This document shows positions 32,783 through 49,068 of a stretch of DNA of 64,000 nt, piece after piece (position 1 is the first letter of the stretch; the number at the start of each line of letters is the position of its first letter). Source of the DNA: Adlercreutzia hattorii (GTDB lineage: Bacteria; Actinomycetota; Coriobacteriia; Coriobacteriales; Eggerthellaceae); contig NZ_AP022829.1 of NCBI RefSeq assembly GCF_011405655.1, positions 124,001 through 188,000 of the forward strand, given 5' to 3'. The position numbers were made by a program, and so were the translations under genes. The notes under the pieces are model-generated. The model was not told the DNA's origin, did no database searches, and saw only the letters and a program-made list of their open reading frames with translations.

Positions 32783-34820
<2,038 letters not shown>

Positions 34821-34982
34821 AAGTCGCGGAATGGGGCTATTTTAAGGCTGTTTGAGGGCCTATATTGCGGTTCGGTGAAGACTTTGCCAGGAATTGTGGA
34901 AAACAGGGCTTAAATCAAGCGAGAAATGCACGGAGTTAATACTTTGGGGACTCAAATGGGGCAATCCTGCGGTTTTGGCGGT

Positions 34983-36089
34983 TCACACCAACGGCAAGTG
35001 GATAACATTGCTCTTGTTCAACATGGTCTCATTGAAGTAATCGATGTTCGCTGTGGTGATAAAGGTCTGACTACCGCCTTCCATAGCGGTTACCAGCGCA
35101 TCGCGTCGTCGGCCGTCCAGCTCGCTCATCACATCGTCAAGAAGGAGCACCGGCTTCTGGTCGATGATCTCCTCGATGACGGCCGCTTCAGCCAGTTTAT
35201 ACGAGAGAACAATAGAGCGCTGCTGTCCCTGACTTCCGTAGATTGAGGCGTTTTCCCCATCGAGAGTGAATACGATTTCATCGCTATGAGGTCCCACCAC
35301 TGCCCGGCCGCGCCCCCGCTCTTCCTCCGCGCGCTCATGAAGCGCGCGGGCCAACGCCTCGCGGGCTTCGTCGCGGGTAAGGGGCTCAACTGTTTCCTCT
35401 GGCGCTCCTTTTCCCCACGAGGGAACATAGACGGCGTTCAAACAATCGCGTCCTTGAGAAATCTCCTGGTACTTTGCAGTCAGATGAGGGAGCAGCCGCT
35501 CAAACAACGCGATGCGATAGATCGTGAGCTGAGCTCCCACCGTGACGATCATCTCATTGATGGCCTCCACAAGAGCGTCATCGGCCTCCTCTTTGAGAAG
35601 GCGATTCTTGTGGCGAATCACCTTCTCGTAATCACGCCGTACCGTGTAGTAGCTTTTATTTACCTGAGCACCCAAGGTGTCCAACGATGACCGCCGCCCG
35701 CTGTTCGGCCCTTTTACCAAATCGAGATCATCAGGCGTAAAAACGACCGAGGGAATGAGTCCTTTCAAATCGATCGGCCGTTTCGCCTTCCCATTGAGCC
35801 GATACTTACGCGTACGACCATCAAGCGTGAGGTCGATATCAAGGCGCCGATTGCCATCAGTTGCCTGCATGGACACGCGACTATGCTCCTCGCCGTGGCG
35901 AATCAGCTGATCAGCCGTACCATGTCGGAACGACGTGAGCGCCGTAAGCAGCTGGATGGCCTCGATGAGGTTCGTTTTGCCAACAGCGTTCTCCCCCACA
36001 AGTACGGTGATGTCCCCAAGCTCGTTTAGAGCCGCATCCTCGTAGTTGCGAAAATTCCGCAAAGAGAGGCTTTCAATACGCAGGGTCAT
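34983..36089 (-). CDS. recF: DNA replication and repair protein RecF
   Basis: 368 residues: SMC-like ABC ATPase with Walker A GENAVGKTN (the usual GxNGxGKT has Ala for Gly here), the RecF motif LRNFRNYEDAAL, VVFTPDDLDLVKGPNSGRR, the signature YGSQGQQRSIVLSYKLAE and Walker B PVLLLDDVMSELDGRR. It loads RecA at single-strand gaps. Its ATG is immediately next to the dnaN stop, so translation is probably coupled. Confidence 0.95.
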   Translation of the reverse strand: MTLRIESLSLRNFRNYEDAALNELGDITVLVGENAVGKTNLIEAIQLLTALTSFRHGTADQLIRHGEEHSRVSMQATDGNRRLDIDLTLDGRTRKYRLNGKAKRPIDLKGLIPSVVFTPDDLDLVKGPNSGRRSSLDTLGAQVNKSYYTVRRDYEKVIRHKNRLLKEEADDALVEAINEMIVTVGAQLTIYRIALFERLLPHLTAKYQEISQGRDCLNAVYVPSWGKGAPEETVEPLTRDEAREALARALHERAEEERGRGRAVVGPHSDEIVFTLDGENASIYGSQGQQRSIVLSYKLAEAAVIEEIIDQKPVLLLDDVMSELDGRRRDALVTAMEGGSQTFITTANIDYFNETMLNKSNVIHLPLV

Positions 36090-37190: not shown

Positions 37191-37343
37191 GGGATGCCTC
37201 TCTTCGTAATGGCCTGAGCTGAAACAGAAGATATCGTGCGGGTATTATAACGCCGGAAAACAGGGAAACGGAGAGGCCGCGCAGAGTTGTCTGACTAATG
37301 GTTGATTAGTTTTACACCCTTTTCTCGCTCCGCTAGTGGAAAA

Positions 37344-37408
37344 AGTGGATAACTTCCTCTTTCCCCAGCGCAAGCAGTGGATAACCGTCCTTTTCACTGA
37401 GTGGATAT
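37344..37408. promoter_or_regulatory. oriC: DnaA-box cluster, candidate oriC
   Basis: AGTGGATAA at 37344-37352 and again at 37376-37384, then AGTGGATAT at 37400-37408. These are inverse matches of TTATCCACT, one change from the consensus TTATCCACA. All three point the same way, with start-to-start spacings of 32 and 24 bp. Confidence 0.6.
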
Positions 37409-37685
37409 CGAAGGTAAAGATGGTTGACAGTTTTAGCTAACAATTCACTGTCGATTTTTCTTTTCAAAAACGACGCGTTGAACTGGGGTTTTGTAAATTA
37501 TGTCAGGGTAATTCTCTTTAAACGCACCTATGTTCGAACAAGATCGTGCTTGATGGGAATTTTCTTCTCAAAGGCATGGGAAGCAGCTGAGAAGGGTTAT
37601 CGAGAGCCTCTGTCAAGGTTTTTGGGCAAAGTTTTTCACTTTTTCCTCTTTGAATGACAGCCGTTAGGAATTCTCGAATTCCGAG

Positions 37686-37775
37686 TTTTCCACTTTTACT
37701 GAATATTTGGTTGATAAGTCGGAATTCTTCAGAAAATCGCAGGTAGTTCAGTTTCGGTTTTCCACTTTTACTGAA
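37686..37775. repeat. 18-bp direct repeat in the origin region
   Basis: TTTTCCACTTTTACTGAA occurs exactly at 37686-37703 and 37758-37775, 72 bp apart. On the minus strand the unit reads TTCAGTAAAAGTGGAAAA, in style like the A-tract iterons found near the DUF4143 ATPases. Confidence 0.8.
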
Positions 37776-37899
37776 CAAACAGTGAATTACTCATCACTGG
37801 TTATGAAATGCGCAGGTAGATACCTTGTAAAATGATGAAACACGTTACAATATCCTGAAAAAATCTTGAAACGACGAATTGAACGGCGAACAAAACGGA

Positions 37900-39048
37900 A
37901 TGATCTTGGAAACCATGGAACAACATACTTCTCTTCACGACGAAGCTCCCCAGGGGGCTTCCTTCGACTATTCCTTCGTCGACACCGTGGGGCGCATCGC
38001 TCTCTACGACGACCTGCGTAGCGCACCACGGGTTGCGGAGATAAAGCCCGCCGACACGGCGGCTTATATCGAGGCGCTCGCCTCCACGGTGTACGAACAG
38101 TCCCATGGCGCAGGGGGAACCATCCCTTACACCGTTATTCGGGAGGTTTCCGAAAATTTCATCCATGCGCGCTTCAAAGAGGTGGTGGTCTCCATTCTCG
38201 ACAAAGGGAACACCATCCGCTTCGCCGATCATGGCCCCGGCATCCCCTCGAAAGAAAAAGCCCAAATGCCAGGGTTTTCTTCTGCCGTCGAGCCTATGAA
38301 AAACTATATTCGGGGCGTCGGGTCGGGCCTTCCCATTGTGCGGGAGTACCTCGAATCGTCCCATGGCACCATTACTATCGAGGACAATCTGGGGACCGGC
38401 GCCGTCGTCACCGTCAGCTTGGTGCGTGAAGAAGACGATCCTCTGGACGACTGGGACGAAACCGACGTGCTGAGCAGCAAGGGAGAGTATATCCCAAGTT
38501 CGTCCTACGCTTCGGAAACCGCCGTGGTTCATCAGCCCTACGCAGCGCCCCTCGCAGCCGGCACCGAACCCTATCCCTCCAATCCAGCCGGAATCTATCC
38601 CTCCATGGGCTCATCCAGCGCACCAGGGGCGACTCCCTACCCACCCGCCTACGCGCCGCAAGGCTACAGCGCAGTACCCGCGGCTCCAGCTCCCGTACCG
38701 GCTCCCTCTTACGGAGCCCCTTACCAGGGATATCCGAGCTACGGGGCCTATGGAGCCGCCCCAACCGCCTATCCGGCCTACGGAGCAGCGCCAGCACCGG
38801 CGGCGTATCCGGGTTACCCGAGTGCCGTCATGCCGGCGCCCGCCCTCTCCGAACGCGAGCGAATATTCCTGAAGCTTCTCCTTAAAGAAGGAACCCTCCG
38901 GAACAAGGATTTCAGCGACCTGACCGAGACGCCGGCCTCCACCACCAACACCACCCTCAATCGGCTGCGAGAGGCAGGTTTGGTGGAAATGGTCGGGAAA
39001 CAGCGAGCCCTCACCCCTTACGGCCGACAGATCGCACAGGGTCTCTAA
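37900..39048 (+). CDS. HATPase-fold protein with Pro/Tyr-rich linker and winged-helix C-terminus
   Basis: About 382 residues. The N-terminal third is a GHKL ATPase fold as in anti-sigma kinases: N-box REVSENFIHA, G1 DHGPGIPS and G2 GVGSGLPIVREYLESSHG. There is no H-box or receiver. A low-complexity spacer of about 130 residues follows, rich in Pro, Tyr, Ala and Gly (repeats like YPAYGAAPAP). The C-terminus is a winged helix (LLKEGTLRNKDFSDLTETPA, NTTLNRLREAGLVEM). It lies immediately upstream of dnaA and downstream of the origin. The start is uncertain: an in-frame TTG at 37879 and an ATG at 37915 are alternatives; none has a strong ribosome site. Function unknown. Confidence 0.7.
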   Translation: MILETMEQHTSLHDEAPQGASFDYSFVDTVGRIALYDDLRSAPRVAEIKPADTAAYIEALASTVYEQSHGAGGTIPYTVIREVSENFIHARFKEVVVSILDKGNTIRFADHGPGIPSKEKAQMPGFSSAVEPMKNYIRGVGSGLPIVREYLESSHGTITIEDNLGTGAVVTVSLVREEDDPLDDWDETDVLSSKGEYIPSSSYASETAVVHQPYAAPLAAGTEPYPSNPAGIYPSMGSSSAPGATPYPPAYAPQGYSAVPAAPAPVPAPSYGAPYQGYPSYGAYGAAPTAYPAYGAAPAPAAYPGYPSAVMPAPALSERERIFLKLLLKEGTLRNKDFSDLTETPASTTNTTLNRLREAGLVEMVGKQRALTPYGRQIAQGL

Positions 39049-41099: not shown

Positions 41100-41127
41100 T
41101 TGACAGTACTTTTTTGCGTTGTATAAT
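41100..41127 (+). promoter_or_regulatory. Sigma-70 promoter of rpmH
   Basis: TTGACA (41100-41105) and TATAAT (41122-41127) with a 16-bp spacer, both consensus. They lie 40 nt before the rpmH start. Confidence 0.85.
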
Positions 41128-44294: not shown

Positions 44295-45290
44295 GTGGGA
44301 TTCTTTGATGGTCTTAAACGAGACACAAAACAAGCCCGGACTGTCGAAGAGGTTGATCAACCTCAGACTCAGGAACAAGAAGTGGTAGCCGCTGAAGAGG
44401 AACTCGTTGACGATCCTGAAAATATTGAAGTGGTTGTCAGGGAGGTTGAGGATTACGCAGCTCCTGTGATTCCTCGAGAACCTTTGAAGAGCTATAAAGA
44501 CAAAGCGCCGGTGCGTCATGTTGTCGGACAGACGAAGATTATTGCCATCATTAACCAAAAAGGTGGCGTAGGGAAGTCGACAACAGCGATCAACCTTGGG
44601 GCTGCACTGGGAGAGATGGGCAAACAGGTGCTTCTTGTCGATCTTGATCCTCAGGGAAATTGCTCCAGTGGCCTAGGCGTTGAGAAGAGTCTTATACAGC
44701 AGTGCATCTACGATGTTCTCCTTAACGATGTTCCTCTTGAAGAGGTAATTATTCCTGATATCGCCGAGGGATTAGACATTGCTCCGGCTACGATTAATCT
44801 TGCGGGGGCGGAAGTCGAGCTGGTCTCGGAAATGGCGCGAGAGAATCGCCTTAAGGATGCTGTGGGTAGCATGCGGGGCAAATATGATTTCATTCTCATC
44901 GACTGCCCGCCTTCTTTGGGTCTTTTAACAGTTAATGCTCTGGTGGCGGCTGATAAATTGCTTATTCCTATCCAATGCGAGTTCTATGCCTTGGAGGGTG
45001 TGACAAAACTTCTCGAATCAATGAAGCGTGTCAAATCTCGCCTTAATCCTACTCTGGATATCTACGGCATTCTTCTTACTATGTACGATAGCCGTACGAC
45101 GCTCTCGAAGCAGGTTGTCGATGAAGTGCGTGAGTATTTTGGGCGCCTGGTGTTCGCCACGCCTATTCCTCGCACGGTTAAATTGTCGGAAGCTCCGAGT
45201 TTTGGGCAGCCGATTACCCAATACGATCCCAAGGGAAGAGGCGCTCTTTCCTATATTGAATTAGCGAAGGAAGTGATTGCACGTGGCTAA
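44295..45290 (+). CDS. parA: ParA/Soj chromosome-partitioning ATPase
   Basis: 331 residues from a GTG with AAGGAGG upstream. The deviant Walker A NQKGGVGKST lies at 88-97, then LLVDLDPQGN, the switch FILIDCPPSLGLLTVNAL and the C-terminal AKEVIA. An unusual N-terminal extension of about 80 residues, mostly acidic (EEELVDDPENIEVVVREVED), precedes the MinD/ParA core. It moves ParB-parS complexes. It overlaps parB by 8 bp. Confidence 0.93.
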   Translation: MGFFDGLKRDTKQARTVEEVDQPQTQEQEVVAAEEELVDDPENIEVVVREVEDYAAPVIPREPLKSYKDKAPVRHVVGQTKIIAIINQKGGVGKSTTAINLGAALGEMGKQVLLVDLDPQGNCSSGLGVEKSLIQQCIYDVLLNDVPLEEVIIPDIAEGLDIAPATINLAGAEVELVSEMARENRLKDAVGSMRGKYDFILIDCPPSLGLLTVNALVAADKLLIPIQCEFYALEGVTKLLESMKRVKSRLNPTLDIYGILLTMYDSRTTLSKQVVDEVREYFGRLVFATPIPRTVKLSEAPSFGQPITQYDPKGRGALSYIELAKEVIARG

Positions 45291-46335
45291 GCCCGAACGT
45301 CGTGGAGGACTCGGTCGAGGTCTGGGTTCCCTCCTCCCCGGTTCCTATGAATCACCTGCCCCTGTTTCCCCTGCGCCCGAGCGCCAGAGAGTGACAATTG
45401 AAGTAGATGAAGAGGCGGCGCGAGAGGCCCCTGTTTCCACACGGCCCGTACGGACGATGGTTGAGATAGAGGAAGAACCAGTTAAGGTCTCTGAACCCAT
45501 TGTGCGAGAAGCCATCATTGAGGAATCGAGGACTGAGGAGGTTCCTGCACGGGGAACTGATGAGGTGGAGATTGATAGAATCGCCCCTAATCCTGATCAG
45601 CCGAGAACCCAATTTAAAAAAGAGGAAATAGAAGAACTCGCTGCTTCTATTGAAAAGGATGGTCTGCTCCAACCTATTCTTGTAAGGCAAATGGCCGATG
45701 GTACCTATCAGATCATTGCCGGTGAGCGCCGTTGGCAAGCCTCTAAGGCTGCTGGTCTTAAGAAGGTTCCCGTTCGTGTAAAAGAGGTTGATGACGACCA
45801 AGCCCTTGAGCTTGCGTTAATTGAAAATATCCAGCGCTCTGATTTGAACCCGATAGAAGAGGCGTACGGATACCGTCGGTTGATGGAGCGACGCTCGATG
45901 ACTCAGGCGGAAGTGGCACAAGCAGTTTCCAAAGGTCGTTCGACTGTCGCCAATGCACTTCGACTTCTCGATCTTCCTGAAGAGGCTCAGCAGCTTCTGT
46001 TTGAGGAAAAGATCACGGCGGGCCATGCACGGGCCATTCTTTCAGTGCCCACAGCTGAAGGTCGTCTTTCCTTGACTCAGAAGATTATTGATAACGGTTT
46101 GAACGTACGCGAAGCAGAGAATCTTGCTCGCCTTATGTCAGGTAAAAAGGACGGCTCTGCCTCGACTCCTCGTGAGCCGATGCCTGCGGTTTACAAGTCT
46201 GTGGCGAAGACCTTACGCGAGACACTGAAGACTAACGTGCGTGTGAAATCGTCTAAAGGGAAGAACAAAATCGAGATTGAATTCAAAGATGAGGAAGATT
46301 TGCGGCGACTCTTCAGCGAGCTTGTTGGTGAGTAA
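45283..46335 (+). CDS. parB: ParB/Spo0J chromosome-partitioning protein
   Basis: About 350 residues from a GTG. The N-terminal RRGGLGRGLGSLLPG is the ParA-activating peptide, followed by an acidic linker. The CTPase/ParB core has the IAPNPDQPRTQF box, then IIAGERRWQASKAAGL and ALIENIQRSDLNPIEEA. A helix-turn-helix (TQAEVAQAVSKGRSTVANAL) and C-terminal dimer domain with VKSSKGKNKIEIEF complete it. It binds the parS sites listed here and spreads by CTP. Confidence 0.93.
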   Translation: MAKPERRGGLGRGLGSLLPGSYESPAPVSPAPERQRVTIEVDEEAAREAPVSTRPVRTMVEIEEEPVKVSEPIVREAIIEESRTEEVPARGTDEVEIDRIAPNPDQPRTQFKKEEIEELAASIEKDGLLQPILVRQMADGTYQIIAGERRWQASKAAGLKKVPVRVKEVDDDQALELALIENIQRSDLNPIEEAYGYRRLMERRSMTQAEVAQAVSKGRSTVANALRLLDLPEEAQQLLFEEKITAGHARAILSVPTAEGRLSLTQKIIDNGLNVREAENLARLMSGKKDGSASTPREPMPAVYKSVAKTLRETLKTNVRVKSSKGKNKIEIEFKDEEDLRRLFSELVGE

Positions 46336-46577: not shown

Positions 46578-46793
46578 CTACCTCGGGCCGCCGCCCAGGG
46601 CGCGCTCGACCGCGGGGTAGTCGAAGTCCGCGGCCCAGATCTCAACCTCCAGCGCCGGGGAGCCCTCGGCGTCCCCGGGCGCGACCGCCCAGCTCGTGAC
46701 CTCCCATCCGCCGAGCTGCGGGAACCTGACCGTCACCGCGACGTCCTCTGCGCCGAACGCGGCCAGCCACCCCGCGGCGTCCGCGGCCCTCAC
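46578..46793 (-). CDS. Third ORF of the IS21-family element, unknown
   Basis: 71 residues from a GTG overlapping the istB stop (GTGA). The sequence is AADAAGWLAAFGAEDVAVTV, then RFPQLGGWEVTSWAV and EVEIWAADFDYPAVERAL. It looks like a small compact alpha/beta domain, acidic, without cysteine or membrane segments. Translational coupling to istB and position inside the terminal repeats make it part of the element. I do not recognise it; it could modulate transposition, target immunity or host functions. Confidence 0.6.
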   Translation of the reverse strand: MRAADAAGWLAAFGAEDVAVTVRFPQLGGWEVTSWAVAPGDAEGSPALEVEIWAADFDYPAVERALGGGPR

Positions 46794-47587
46794 GACTGCC
46801 CCCTCTCGGGCAGCCCGTCGCCGTCGGCCGCCTCGGCCAGCAGGTCCTTCATGCGGTAGGACCGCCCCGTTATCTTGAGCATCGTGCAGTGGTGGCACAC
46901 CCGGTCGGCGATGGCCGCGGCGGTCACCGCGTCCCCGAACACGTCGGCCCAAAGGCCCACGGCCACGTTGGTGGTGATGACCGTGGAGCGGTGCTCGTAG
47001 CGGGCCGAGACGAGCTGGAACAGCAGGTCGGCCCCCTCCTCGTCCACGTCCAGGTAGCCGAGCTCGTCGATGATGAGCAGCGTCGCGTGGGCGTAGTACT
47101 TCAGCCTCTTCGCCAGGATGCCGCGCGAGGAGGCGTCCTTCAGGTCGCGCACCAGCGCCGCGCAGTCGGTGAAGCGCACCTCCTTGCGGGCGCGCACCGC
47201 CTCCACCCCCAGCGCCACCGCGATGTGGGTCTTGCCCACGCCCGGGCTGCCGACCAGAACCACGTTCTCGGCCGCGTCCAGGAACCTGAGCGTGGCCAGG
47301 TCGTCCACGACGGCCCTGGGTATGGAGGGCTGGAAGGAGAAGTCGAAGTCGGCCAGCGTCTTGACGAACGGGAAGCCGGCGGCGCGCACCTTGCGGTCGG
47401 TCCCGCGACGGCGCTTGGCCTCGGCCTCCTCGGAGGTCATGGCGAGCATCGCCGAGGCGAAGTCGGCCTCGCCGGCGGCCACCGCCGACATCCAGTGGGG
47501 CAGCCCCGCCGCCATGGCGTCCAGCCCCAGCTCCGAGAGGTTCTCGCGTATGCGGGCGTAGGCGCCGCCCTCGTCCCGGGCGCTCAC
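46790..47587 (-). CDS. istB: IS21-family helper ATPase IstB
   Basis: 265 residues from a GTG that overlaps the istA stop by 4 bp. The N-terminal helical region precedes the AAA+ core with VVLVGSPGVGKTHIAVALGV (Walker A 113-120), LLIIDELGYLDVDEEGADLL (Walker B), sensor ITTNVAVGLWADVFGD and an Arg-containing ADRVCHHC. IstB oligomerises on target DNA and recruits IstA. The gene is intact. Confidence 0.93.
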   Translation of the reverse strand: MSARDEGGAYARIRENLSELGLDAMAAGLPHWMSAVAAGEADFASAMLAMTSEEAEAKRRRGTDRKVRAAGFPFVKTLADFDFSFQPSIPRAVVDDLATLRFLDAAENVVLVGSPGVGKTHIAVALGVEAVRARKEVRFTDCAALVRDLKDASSRGILAKRLKYYAHATLLIIDELGYLDVDEEGADLLFQLVSARYEHRSTVITTNVAVGLWADVFGDAVTAAAIADRVCHHCTMLKITGRSYRMKDLLAEAADGDGLPERGQS

Positions 47588-48813
47588 AGCGACCCCTCCC
47601 CGAGCCTGCCGAGCAGCTCCAGGTTGGCGCGGGCCGCCGCCTCGATGTCGGCGTCGGCGTAGCGCGCCTTCGCGGCCAGGGCCTCGGCGTAGTGCGCCGG
47701 GTCGTAGACGACGGGCCCTCCCGGGGCCGACAGGTCGTGGACCGCGACGGTCTCGCCGGCCATCTCCACCCTCACCTGGCCCGACGGCATCGCGAGCACC
47801 TTGACGCGCCTGCCTATGCAGCGCCGGGGCACCGAGAACTCGCGGCCCCGGCAGCGGACGAGCATCGTGGGGGGCGCCGCCTGGACGGAGACGTCGGCCA
47901 CCATCGACTCCAAAAGCCCCATGTTGCCCACCTTGCGCAGCTCCTCCTTCTCGCGCATGAACAGCACCGCCGGCGGCACCCCGGTCGACGCGCTGGGCTC
48001 GGTGTTGCACCGCGCCTCGATGCGCGCGATGGCGGCCACGAGCCCCTCCTCGCCGCGGAAGTCGCCCTCGTAGACGGCCAGCCTCGACAGGAACCGGTTC
48101 GACGACTCCACCTTGCCCTTGGTCTGCGGGCTCCTCGGCCGCGCCAGCTCCAGCTCGAAGCCCGCCGCGGCGGCGAACCTGGCGAAGCGCGCCGAGACGC
48201 GCCGCCCCGAGGCGGAGGACGAGACGATGGAGGACATGTTGTCGGTGACCAGCGTGCGCGCCGTGCCTCCGTTGGCGGCCATCACCGCCAGCAGGCACGC
48301 CATGACGTCGTCCTCGGTGCGCGTCCTGGAGTAGACGAACCGGTGGAGCCGGGAGTAGCCCAGCGTGGCCGAGAACACGTTGAACTCGAACACCTCGCCC
48401 TCGGCGTCGGCCATGCGCAGCGACTCCTTCCAGTCGAACTGCATCTGCTCGCCGGGCGCCGTCTCGAAGCGGGGGTGGGGCTCGGGGCCCTCCGGAGGGC
48501 GCCCGCACTCGATGCCGTTGCGGCGCATCCACTTGGTGAGCGTGTTGTAGGCCGGCGGCTCCTCGCCGGCGTAGCAGCGGTCGATCAGGTACTCGTAGAT
48601 GCCGCGCTTGGTCGCGCCGGGCAGCTGCGCCTTGGCCTCTATGACCTCCCTGTGGCGGTCCAGCCCGCTCGGGCGGCACCTGCGCGCGTCCTCCACCTGG
48701 CCGCCGGCCTTCCAGTACTTGGCCACCGTGTGCCGGTTCATGCCGTAGCGCCGGGCGATGTCGGTGAAGTTGGGCGTGGTGCCCGCCTGCCTGTACATGT
48801 CGAACTCTCCCAT
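47584..48813 (-). CDS. istA: IS21-family transposase IstA
   Basis: 409 residues from the ATG at 48813 (AAGGA 6 nt upstream). It has an N-terminal helix-turn-helix (PNFTDIARRYGMNRHTVAKY) and a DDE core with GEQMQFDWKES, TLVTDNMSS and KGKVESSNRFL supplying D, D and E. A C-terminal Mu-transposase-like beta domain follows (VRCRGREFSVPRRCIGRRVK). All catalytic residues are present. It is translationally coupled to istB. Confidence 0.92.
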   Translation of the reverse strand: MGEFDMYRQAGTTPNFTDIARRYGMNRHTVAKYWKAGGQVEDARRCRPSGLDRHREVIEAKAQLPGATKRGIYEYLIDRCYAGEEPPAYNTLTKWMRRNGIECGRPPEGPEPHPRFETAPGEQMQFDWKESLRMADAEGEVFEFNVFSATLGYSRLHRFVYSRTRTEDDVMACLLAVMAANGGTARTLVTDNMSSIVSSSASGRRVSARFARFAAAAGFELELARPRSPQTKGKVESSNRFLSRLAVYEGDFRGEEGLVAAIARIEARCNTEPSASTGVPPAVLFMREKEELRKVGNMGLLESMVADVSVQAAPPTMLVRCRGREFSVPRRCIGRRVKVLAMPSGQVRVEMAGETVAVHDLSAPGGPVVYDPAHYAEALAAKARYADADIEAAARANLELLGRLGEGSL

Positions 48814-49068
48814 GATGTTCCTTTCCAATCGGGGCTCCTTCCGTCCGGAGACGTCGGGAGCCTACACCTTGCGGCGCCGGGGGCGCCGCCGGCCAAAGTC
48901 CGGTAGCGCGATCGGCGCCTGTGCGGTGGCGCGATTGGCGGGAAGCGGGGGCCCAATCGGCGATTATTACGGTAGCGCTAACAGAAGGCTCCGCCCTTGC
49001 GTCAAAACGCCGCCAGTCGGGATACGATACGGGTGTTCAAGTCGTATCAGCCCGGAAAGGCGGCCGTT

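Follow-up and report, generated by a model that had tools for sequence, protein, structure and literature searches.

Bacteria are known to control DnaA through several regulators, including Hda, YabA, SirA, Soj, and DnaD. To our knowledge, none of these is a GHKL protein or the product of a gene lying in front of dnaA, and how initiation is timed outside E. coli, B. subtilis, and Caulobacter is an open question. The parts of the protein considered here are themselves familiar: SpoIIAB-like ATPases are classic, and a GHKL ATPase is found together with a winged helix in DIP2311. A soluble HATPase regulator that carries no HisKA domain has also been described in Streptomyces, namely, SspH, which requires its N-box Asn and G1 Asp for function (PMC9137472).

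The locus described here lies in a 64,000-nucleotide stretch of Adlercreutzia hattorii DNA, the whole of which we call the window. Its order is gyrB, recF, and dnaN on the minus strand, a gap, the gene of interest and dnaA on the plus strand, and then rpmH and rnpA, most of these names having been assigned by eye from the translations (Table 1). A first, sequence-only reading had put the gene in the dnaN-dnaA gap. It does sit between the likely oriC and dnaA, but the origin-like part of that interval needs to be drawn more narrowly, between the gene and a divergent dnaN, since dnaN is on the minus strand. Translation probably starts at the ATG at 37915, the likelier site because the ACCATGGA found there is kept in both of the same-genus relatives that were aligned (L010 and L011). 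A consensus promoter scan of the window made no call at the TACAAT hexamer just upstream, whose promoter role we infer. Some other features of the window may be recorded here. A perfect TTGACA-16-TATAAT promoter stands ahead of rpmH at 41100-41127. In the window's DnaA, a long Pro/Ala-rich stretch lies N-terminal to the AAA+ domain, and the protein fits its family less well than the DnaA of other orders does (399.5 bits versus up to about 570). Behind parB (45277-46335) is an IS21-type pair on the minus strand (46790-48828), consisting of an IstA-like protein (47584-48828) and an IstB-like AAA protein in the frame 46790-48679, with family names given by eye; the IstB-like AAA match occurs at four places in the genome with an identical score.

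Table 1. Features of the dnaA-linked locus, in window coordinates
Feature	Position	Strand	Basis
Gap from dnaN (-) to the HATPase gene (+), probable oriC	37191-37878	.	DnaA-box-like sites
Probable -10 hexamer TACAAT of the HATPase gene's own promoter	37846-37851	+	Conserved in alignment with L010 and L011
HATPase-linker-winged-helix gene	37879-39048	+	ORF, 389 codons from TTG; likelier start ATG 37915
SpoIIAB-like GHKL ATPase domain, residues 35-182	37981-38424	+	Pfam HATPase_c; model aligned with SpoIIAB 1til and DIP2311 3lmm
N box, E89-x3-N93-x2-H96-A, residues 89-97	38143-38169	+	N93 and H96 in 67/67 rows; E89 in 64/67
G1 box, D117-H-G-P-G-I, residues 117-122	38227-38244	+	D117, G119, and G121 in 67/67 rows
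G2 box, G146-V-G-S-G, residues 146-150, end of ATP lid	38314-38328	+	G146, G148, and G150 in 67/67 rows
Pro/Ala/Tyr-rich low-complexity linker	38425-38844	+	Composition; pLDDT about 43-66 in blocks of ten
MarR-like winged-helix domain	38845-39042	+	Pfam, AlphaFold2 model, structural comparison
dnaA	39128-40756	+	Directly 3' of the HATPase gene, same strand, 79-bp gap

What kind of protein does the gene encode? Pfam HATPase_c (PF02518) matches residues 84 to 181 (E = 1.2e-10; 42.2 bits against a cut-off of 26.4) and was matched by all 32 A2 members (E<=0.01). At E<=1, Pfam gave no match to HisKA or another phospho-acceptor domain, nor was PF13749, which we take to be HATPase_c_4, among the protein's 11 matches. 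In an AlphaFold2 model made with 70 homologues, both domains have a pLDDT of about 92-98 and the linker is disordered; a compact member of 277 aa was modeled at a pLDDT of 89.8. The best solved match to the ATPase part of the compact member is DIP2311 of Corynebacterium diphtheriae (3lmm; Z 15.0, 2.6 Å, 147 residues), and the alignment of DIP2311 with the window model covers both domains (Z 14.3, rmsd 10.5). SpoIIAB (1til) matches the window model at Z 11.6 (128 residues, 3.8 Å) and the compact member at Z 11.9 (127 residues, 3.1 Å), which bears out the anti-sigma-kinase-like fold proposed from the sequence. With Foldseek alone, the ATPase domains of histidine kinases and mitochondrial-type kinases rank first; a family that is missing from the VIA-align lists is not thereby excluded. 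The first reading had also called the ATP-binding boxes intact, and they are so across the family: of the 164 extracted members (154 different sequences when the last 200 residues are compared), all have the G1 and G2 patterns and 161 have the complete N-box pattern. Destroyed boxes, which that reading would have counted against itself, did not appear among these members.

Might the protein then be a serine/threonine kinase of the SpoIIAB/RsbW type, working through a partner switch that involves a sigma factor and an anti-anti-sigma protein of the STAS kind? SpoIIAB is the best-Z GHKL entry after DIP2311 in both structural comparisons, and the lid spacing looks SpoIIAB-like by eye. Yet just 2 of 32 members match HATPase_c_2 (E<=0.01), STAS went undetected in 4 of the 30 gene-carrying genomes tested (G004, G134, G156, and G163), and the window's genome has STAS only in frames of 594 and 699 aa. 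We know, moreover, of no winged helix in RsbW or SpoIIAB, and we consider a kinase of this type quite improbable.

The linker of the window protein spans 141 residues, of which 20% are Pro, 21% Ala, and 12% Tyr. Linkers run from 16 to 170 residues in families f1 to f3 and from 11 to 52 in the others, and the long Pro/Ala/Tyr-rich version is a lineage addition within f1 to f3. As for the C-terminal domain, a TrmB/MarR-type winged-helix match to residues 323 to 374 (E = 2.9e-4) falls under the Pfam cut-off; the assignment is firm from the predicted structure (pLDDT about 94-98), from the likeness to MarR folds (Z about 13 over some 70 residues, at an rmsd of 0.8-2 Å for several, DNA-bound MarR entries included), and from the relatives. 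With the HATPase_c match, the low-complexity linker, and the modeled winged helix all in place, the ATPase-linker-winged-helix architecture first read from the translation holds. The winged helix is reached in 163 of the 164 members, the remaining one being cut by a contig end. Its identity to the window protein is 37-49% in four rows from the window's family and 19-30% in five more distant rows; the corresponding values for the ATPase domain are 74-86% and 32-59%. Judged from such alignments, linker length and winged-helix sequence are far more variable than the ATPase core. Of 84 rows, 78 have a Lys or Arg at the wing position and 56 have an Arg in the recognition helix, where the window has a Thr.

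How closely is the gene bound to dnaA? The check proposed with the first reading, conservation beside dnaA across Coriobacteriia (the window's class), came out in its favor. Of 120 class genomes in which both places could be compared, 109 have the gene on the same strand, 104-752 bp upstream of the dnaA match. In another 7, whose contigs start at dnaA, the two become neighbors only when the contig ends are joined (the full contig extent is known for three). The gene adjoins dnaA in inverted orientation in 2 members of the window's family (G102 and G190, which are L078 and L077), and the last 2 genomes have gene and dnaA on separate draft contigs. Outside the class, 75 genomes with both show the same arrangement: 67 have the gene on the same strand 39-341 bp upstream, 5 have it across the join, and 3 have it on a different contig; in G238, also outside the class, it is again beside dnaA. 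Among 80 named loci, dnaA is next on the same strand in 76, and the contigs of the other 4 end within 652 bp. In none of the three sets are homologues scattered away from dnaA, the outcome that the first reading had said would speak against it. Stop-to-start spacing was calculated for the 71 loci where the dnaA start could be guessed and is -30 to 60 bp in 63 of them; in 14 the genes overlap or come within 4 bp of each other, and the pair of largest gaps (797 bp) probably reflects wrongly guessed dnaA starts. Since the spacing is short in most loci, the gene and dnaA look like an operon in most lineages.

The family is widespread. Matches at E<=1e-8 were found in 169 of 197 class genomes, so that the gene is no chance occurrence, and in 158 of the 170 good assemblies. 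Profile A1 has matches at E<=1e-10 in 162 of 396 genomes sampled from the phylum. By a count of the rows, 124 of the 162 lie outside the class, and a few of these, with E near 1e-11, probably represent kinases. Scanning genome contigs gave 446 relatives, of which 80 with names were retained. Their record titles, in which the taxon names are the submitters' labels, include Coriobacteriia, Candidatus Aquicultor, Subteraquimicrobium, Oleimmundimicrobium, Hakubella, Anaerosomatales, and Thermoleophilia, along with Armatimonadetes (including CSP1-3), Terrabacteria group ANGP1, UBP13, and some Bacillota or Clostridia. In FastTree trees of the ATPase-winged-helix proteins and of DnaA, both calculated without bootstrap support, the Armatimonadetes, ANGP1, and Centralia-Bacillota records stand apart from the actinobacterial ones; the inner branching is the same for most, while the deep branches differ. 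Because the main clades agree between the two trees, the pattern fits a long joint descent of the gene and dnaA. A plasmid search turned up just 20 records, from Rhizobium and Azospirillum, that match in part (31% across 44% of the query among the ten matches listed), and a phage search for the family gave no matches, so there is no sign of mobility.

What of the 28 class genomes in which the first search had no match? Profile A2 finds no family copy anywhere in them, and almost all of its partial matches there (E>=2.8e-12) fall in long frames that look like kinases. In 18 of the 28, dnaA is without a match as well, which suggests a missing contig; in two of the 28, the contig ends (G145) or begins at dnaA (G095). 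Eight genomes, in turn, keep rpmH and dnaA with the family gene absent between them (G008, G011, G020, G029, G061, G131, G139, and G162), so the gene is not indispensable and can be lost. These eight verified losses, together with a recognition helix that differs between lineages, would suit a protein whose job is unrelated to replication control, that is, a regulator of other genes that uses the dnaA promoter for constitutive expression only. We think this improbable, given that no placed genome shows a change of neighborhood apart from two local inversions and draft-contig breaks, and that actinobacterial classes and records labeled Armatimonadetes or ANGP1 alike retain the pair.

On its other side, the gene faces what is probably the origin. 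The gap upstream has sites with one mismatch to TTATCCACA at 37344 and 37376 and sites with two mismatches at 37335, 37400, 37597, 37686, 37709, and 37758, and GTTTTCCACTTTTACTGAA is repeated in it at 37685 and 37757. GC skew in the window is noisy and did not locate the origin. When sites within one mismatch of TTATCCACA were counted in 77 loci (76 relatives and the window), the 52.6 kb ahead of the gene contained 370 DnaA boxes (7.0 per kb), compared with 129 across the 49.8 kb that follow dnaA (2.6 per kb) and 17 within the 53.9 kb of dnaA sequence (0.32 per kb); the window, with two sites at one mismatch, has fewer and weaker ones than its relatives. Because the boxes cluster upstream of it, the gene appears likely to sit between oriC and dnaA. 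For operators, the region ahead of the gene in 78 loci was searched for k-mers, direct repeats, and gapped palindromes. Facing boxes of the form TCCACA-N2-TGTGGA occur in 59 of these and the same pair at N14 spacing occurs in 62, with none in shuffles; such fixed-spacing facing boxes (L119 to L198) suggest a conserved orisome layout. Tandem TGTGGA-N6-TGTGGA boxes were also seen, in 51 of the 78. A comparison of paired boxes between genomes without and with the gene covered 3 losers and 9 holders in which rpmH and dnaA were measurable.

Does the protein have a binding site of its own? After DnaA boxes were masked, the upstream motifs left were CTTGAAAA and TAGAATC. Both were set aside as its specific target because both are also present in L210, from a genome that lost the gene. 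No conserved operator specific to the gene holders, other than DnaA boxes, was found upstream in the 78 loci. In a separate observation, a TAGAATC(GGC) box is followed about 40 bp on by CCTTGAAAA, some 390-470 bp before the HATPase gene (L148, L157, L158, and others); the two are possibly a promoter and leader, and they too occur in a genome without the gene.

What, then, might such a protein do in front of dnaA? It probably helps to decide when replication starts. The reading that we favor, tentatively and with slightly less than even confidence, is a nucleotide-gated switch acting on dnaA expression or on oriC and DnaA. Its gene would lead the dnaA transcription unit. The protein would pair a SpoIIAB-type GHKL domain, able to bind ATP or ADP and probably to dimerize, with a MarR-type winged helix at the other end of a flexible linker. 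The nucleotide state would alter the dimer and so the way in which the winged helices engage DNA at the adjacent control region of oriC and the dnaA operon; alternatively, it would govern a nucleotide-dependent contact with DnaA at that region. Either way, dnaA output or the access of DnaA to the origin would be tuned. The support is computed (domains, ATP boxes, fold matches, adjacency, operon-like spacing in most lineages, and upstream DnaA boxes). We favor the switch because of the intact ATP boxes, the retained winged helix, the adjacency to dnaA, the DnaA boxes upstream, and the SpoIIAB and MarR folds, and we count for it as well the lack of a family copy elsewhere in the 28 genomes, the Lys or Arg at the wing, and the agreement of the two trees. 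Against it we count the poor conservation of the winged helix, the Thr of the window at the recognition-helix Arg position, the lack of a specific operator beyond DnaA boxes, and the eight losses with rpmH and dnaA in place.

The relative conservation of the two domains speaks for another arrangement. With the window as reference, the HATPase domain had appeared better conserved than DnaA domain III in 130 of 137 loci, a claim that was dropped: the window's DnaA is diverged, which biases the comparison. With three other references, HATPase identity exceeds that of DnaA in 32 of 131, 29 of 130, and 33 of 132 pairs, DnaA being the higher in about three quarters. From such neutral references the median identity of the ATPase domain is 57%, approaching the 65-66% of the DnaA AAA+ domain. 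Within the protein, conservation is carried by the ATPase domain and not by the winged helix, as would be expected if the GHKL domain bound DnaA (or the DnaB-loading complex) and modulated its nucleotide cycle or filament, with the winged helix as a tether or non-specific DNA clamp. Strict linkage to dnaA and overlapping genes would also suit a protein partner, and DnaA regulators that work by protein contact are known in other bacteria. No member other than the one truncated at a contig end lacks the winged helix, however, which suggests more than a tether. On balance we find protein contact rather unlikely, though the far better conservation of the ATPase puts it close behind the switch.

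That the protein replaces DciA, as a cofactor of the orisome or of helicase loading, is very improbable. DciA (PF05258) was undetected at E<=1e-3 in the window (34789-34983) and the rest of its genome and in 80 others of the 197, but beyond the window's order DciA and the HATPase-winged-helix gene occur together in most genomes. In the window's family, such DciA matches as were found have weak scores, a sign of divergence more than of clear absence. Most members of that family are without a DciA match, and the helicase loader there may have diverged or been replaced.

Returning to the nucleotide-gated switch, we can ask how far it might extend. It is possible, though we would not put the chance as high as even, that these proteins form an ancient class of replication-initiation regulators, in which a GHKL switch with a winged helix, encoded by the leader gene of the dnaA operon, would read ATP/ADP and act at oriC beside DnaA. 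Many deep-branching actinobacterial classes and lineages of the Armatimonadetes/ANGP1 type would rely on it as others use Hda, YabA, and SirA. A protein whose gene keeps its place ahead of dnaA across classes, and apparently across phyla, while its ATP site stays intact makes a concrete candidate regulator. The old proposal that energy charge is sensed at initiation could be tested directly with it. Nearly all sampled relatives in the window's class carry the family, and some of them are cultivated, so such a test should be feasible.

In searches of the open literature, we found no description of the dnaA-linked family, and the same searches found no DnaA regulator for deep-branching actinobacterial lineages. 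Passages in PMC4255298, PMC5109545, and PMC9137472 do not describe the family; those of the DciA paper present the dciA neighborhood without such a gene (PMC5109545). SspH is a HATPase domain only, of 142 aa, and affects antibiotic clusters, whereas the dnaA-linked protein has a winged helix too (PMC9137472). Sensor histidine kinases such as HK853, YycG, and CpxA resemble it in HATPase_c, by sequence and by Foldseek; unlike them, it has no HisKA or phospho-acceptor domain and no sensor domain, and its ATPase is N-terminal and followed by the winged helix. With SpoIIAB/RsbW of Bacillus it shares a GHKL/Bergerat ATPase of similar size and lid and a matching fold, but it adds a C-terminal winged helix and an N-terminal hairpin, hardly matches HATPase_c_2, has no consistent STAS partner, and is tied to dnaA. 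DIP2311 is the best structural match, with a GHKL ATPase and a winged helix in both, but is larger (a 477-residue chain against 277 residues in the compact member), the matched part beginning at residue 235; we take its N terminus to be an AlbA_2 domain and its ATPase to be HATPase_c_4, and we know of no linkage to dnaA. With Hda, YabA, SirA, Soj, and DnaD, finally, the likeness is one of proposed role, the control of initiation.
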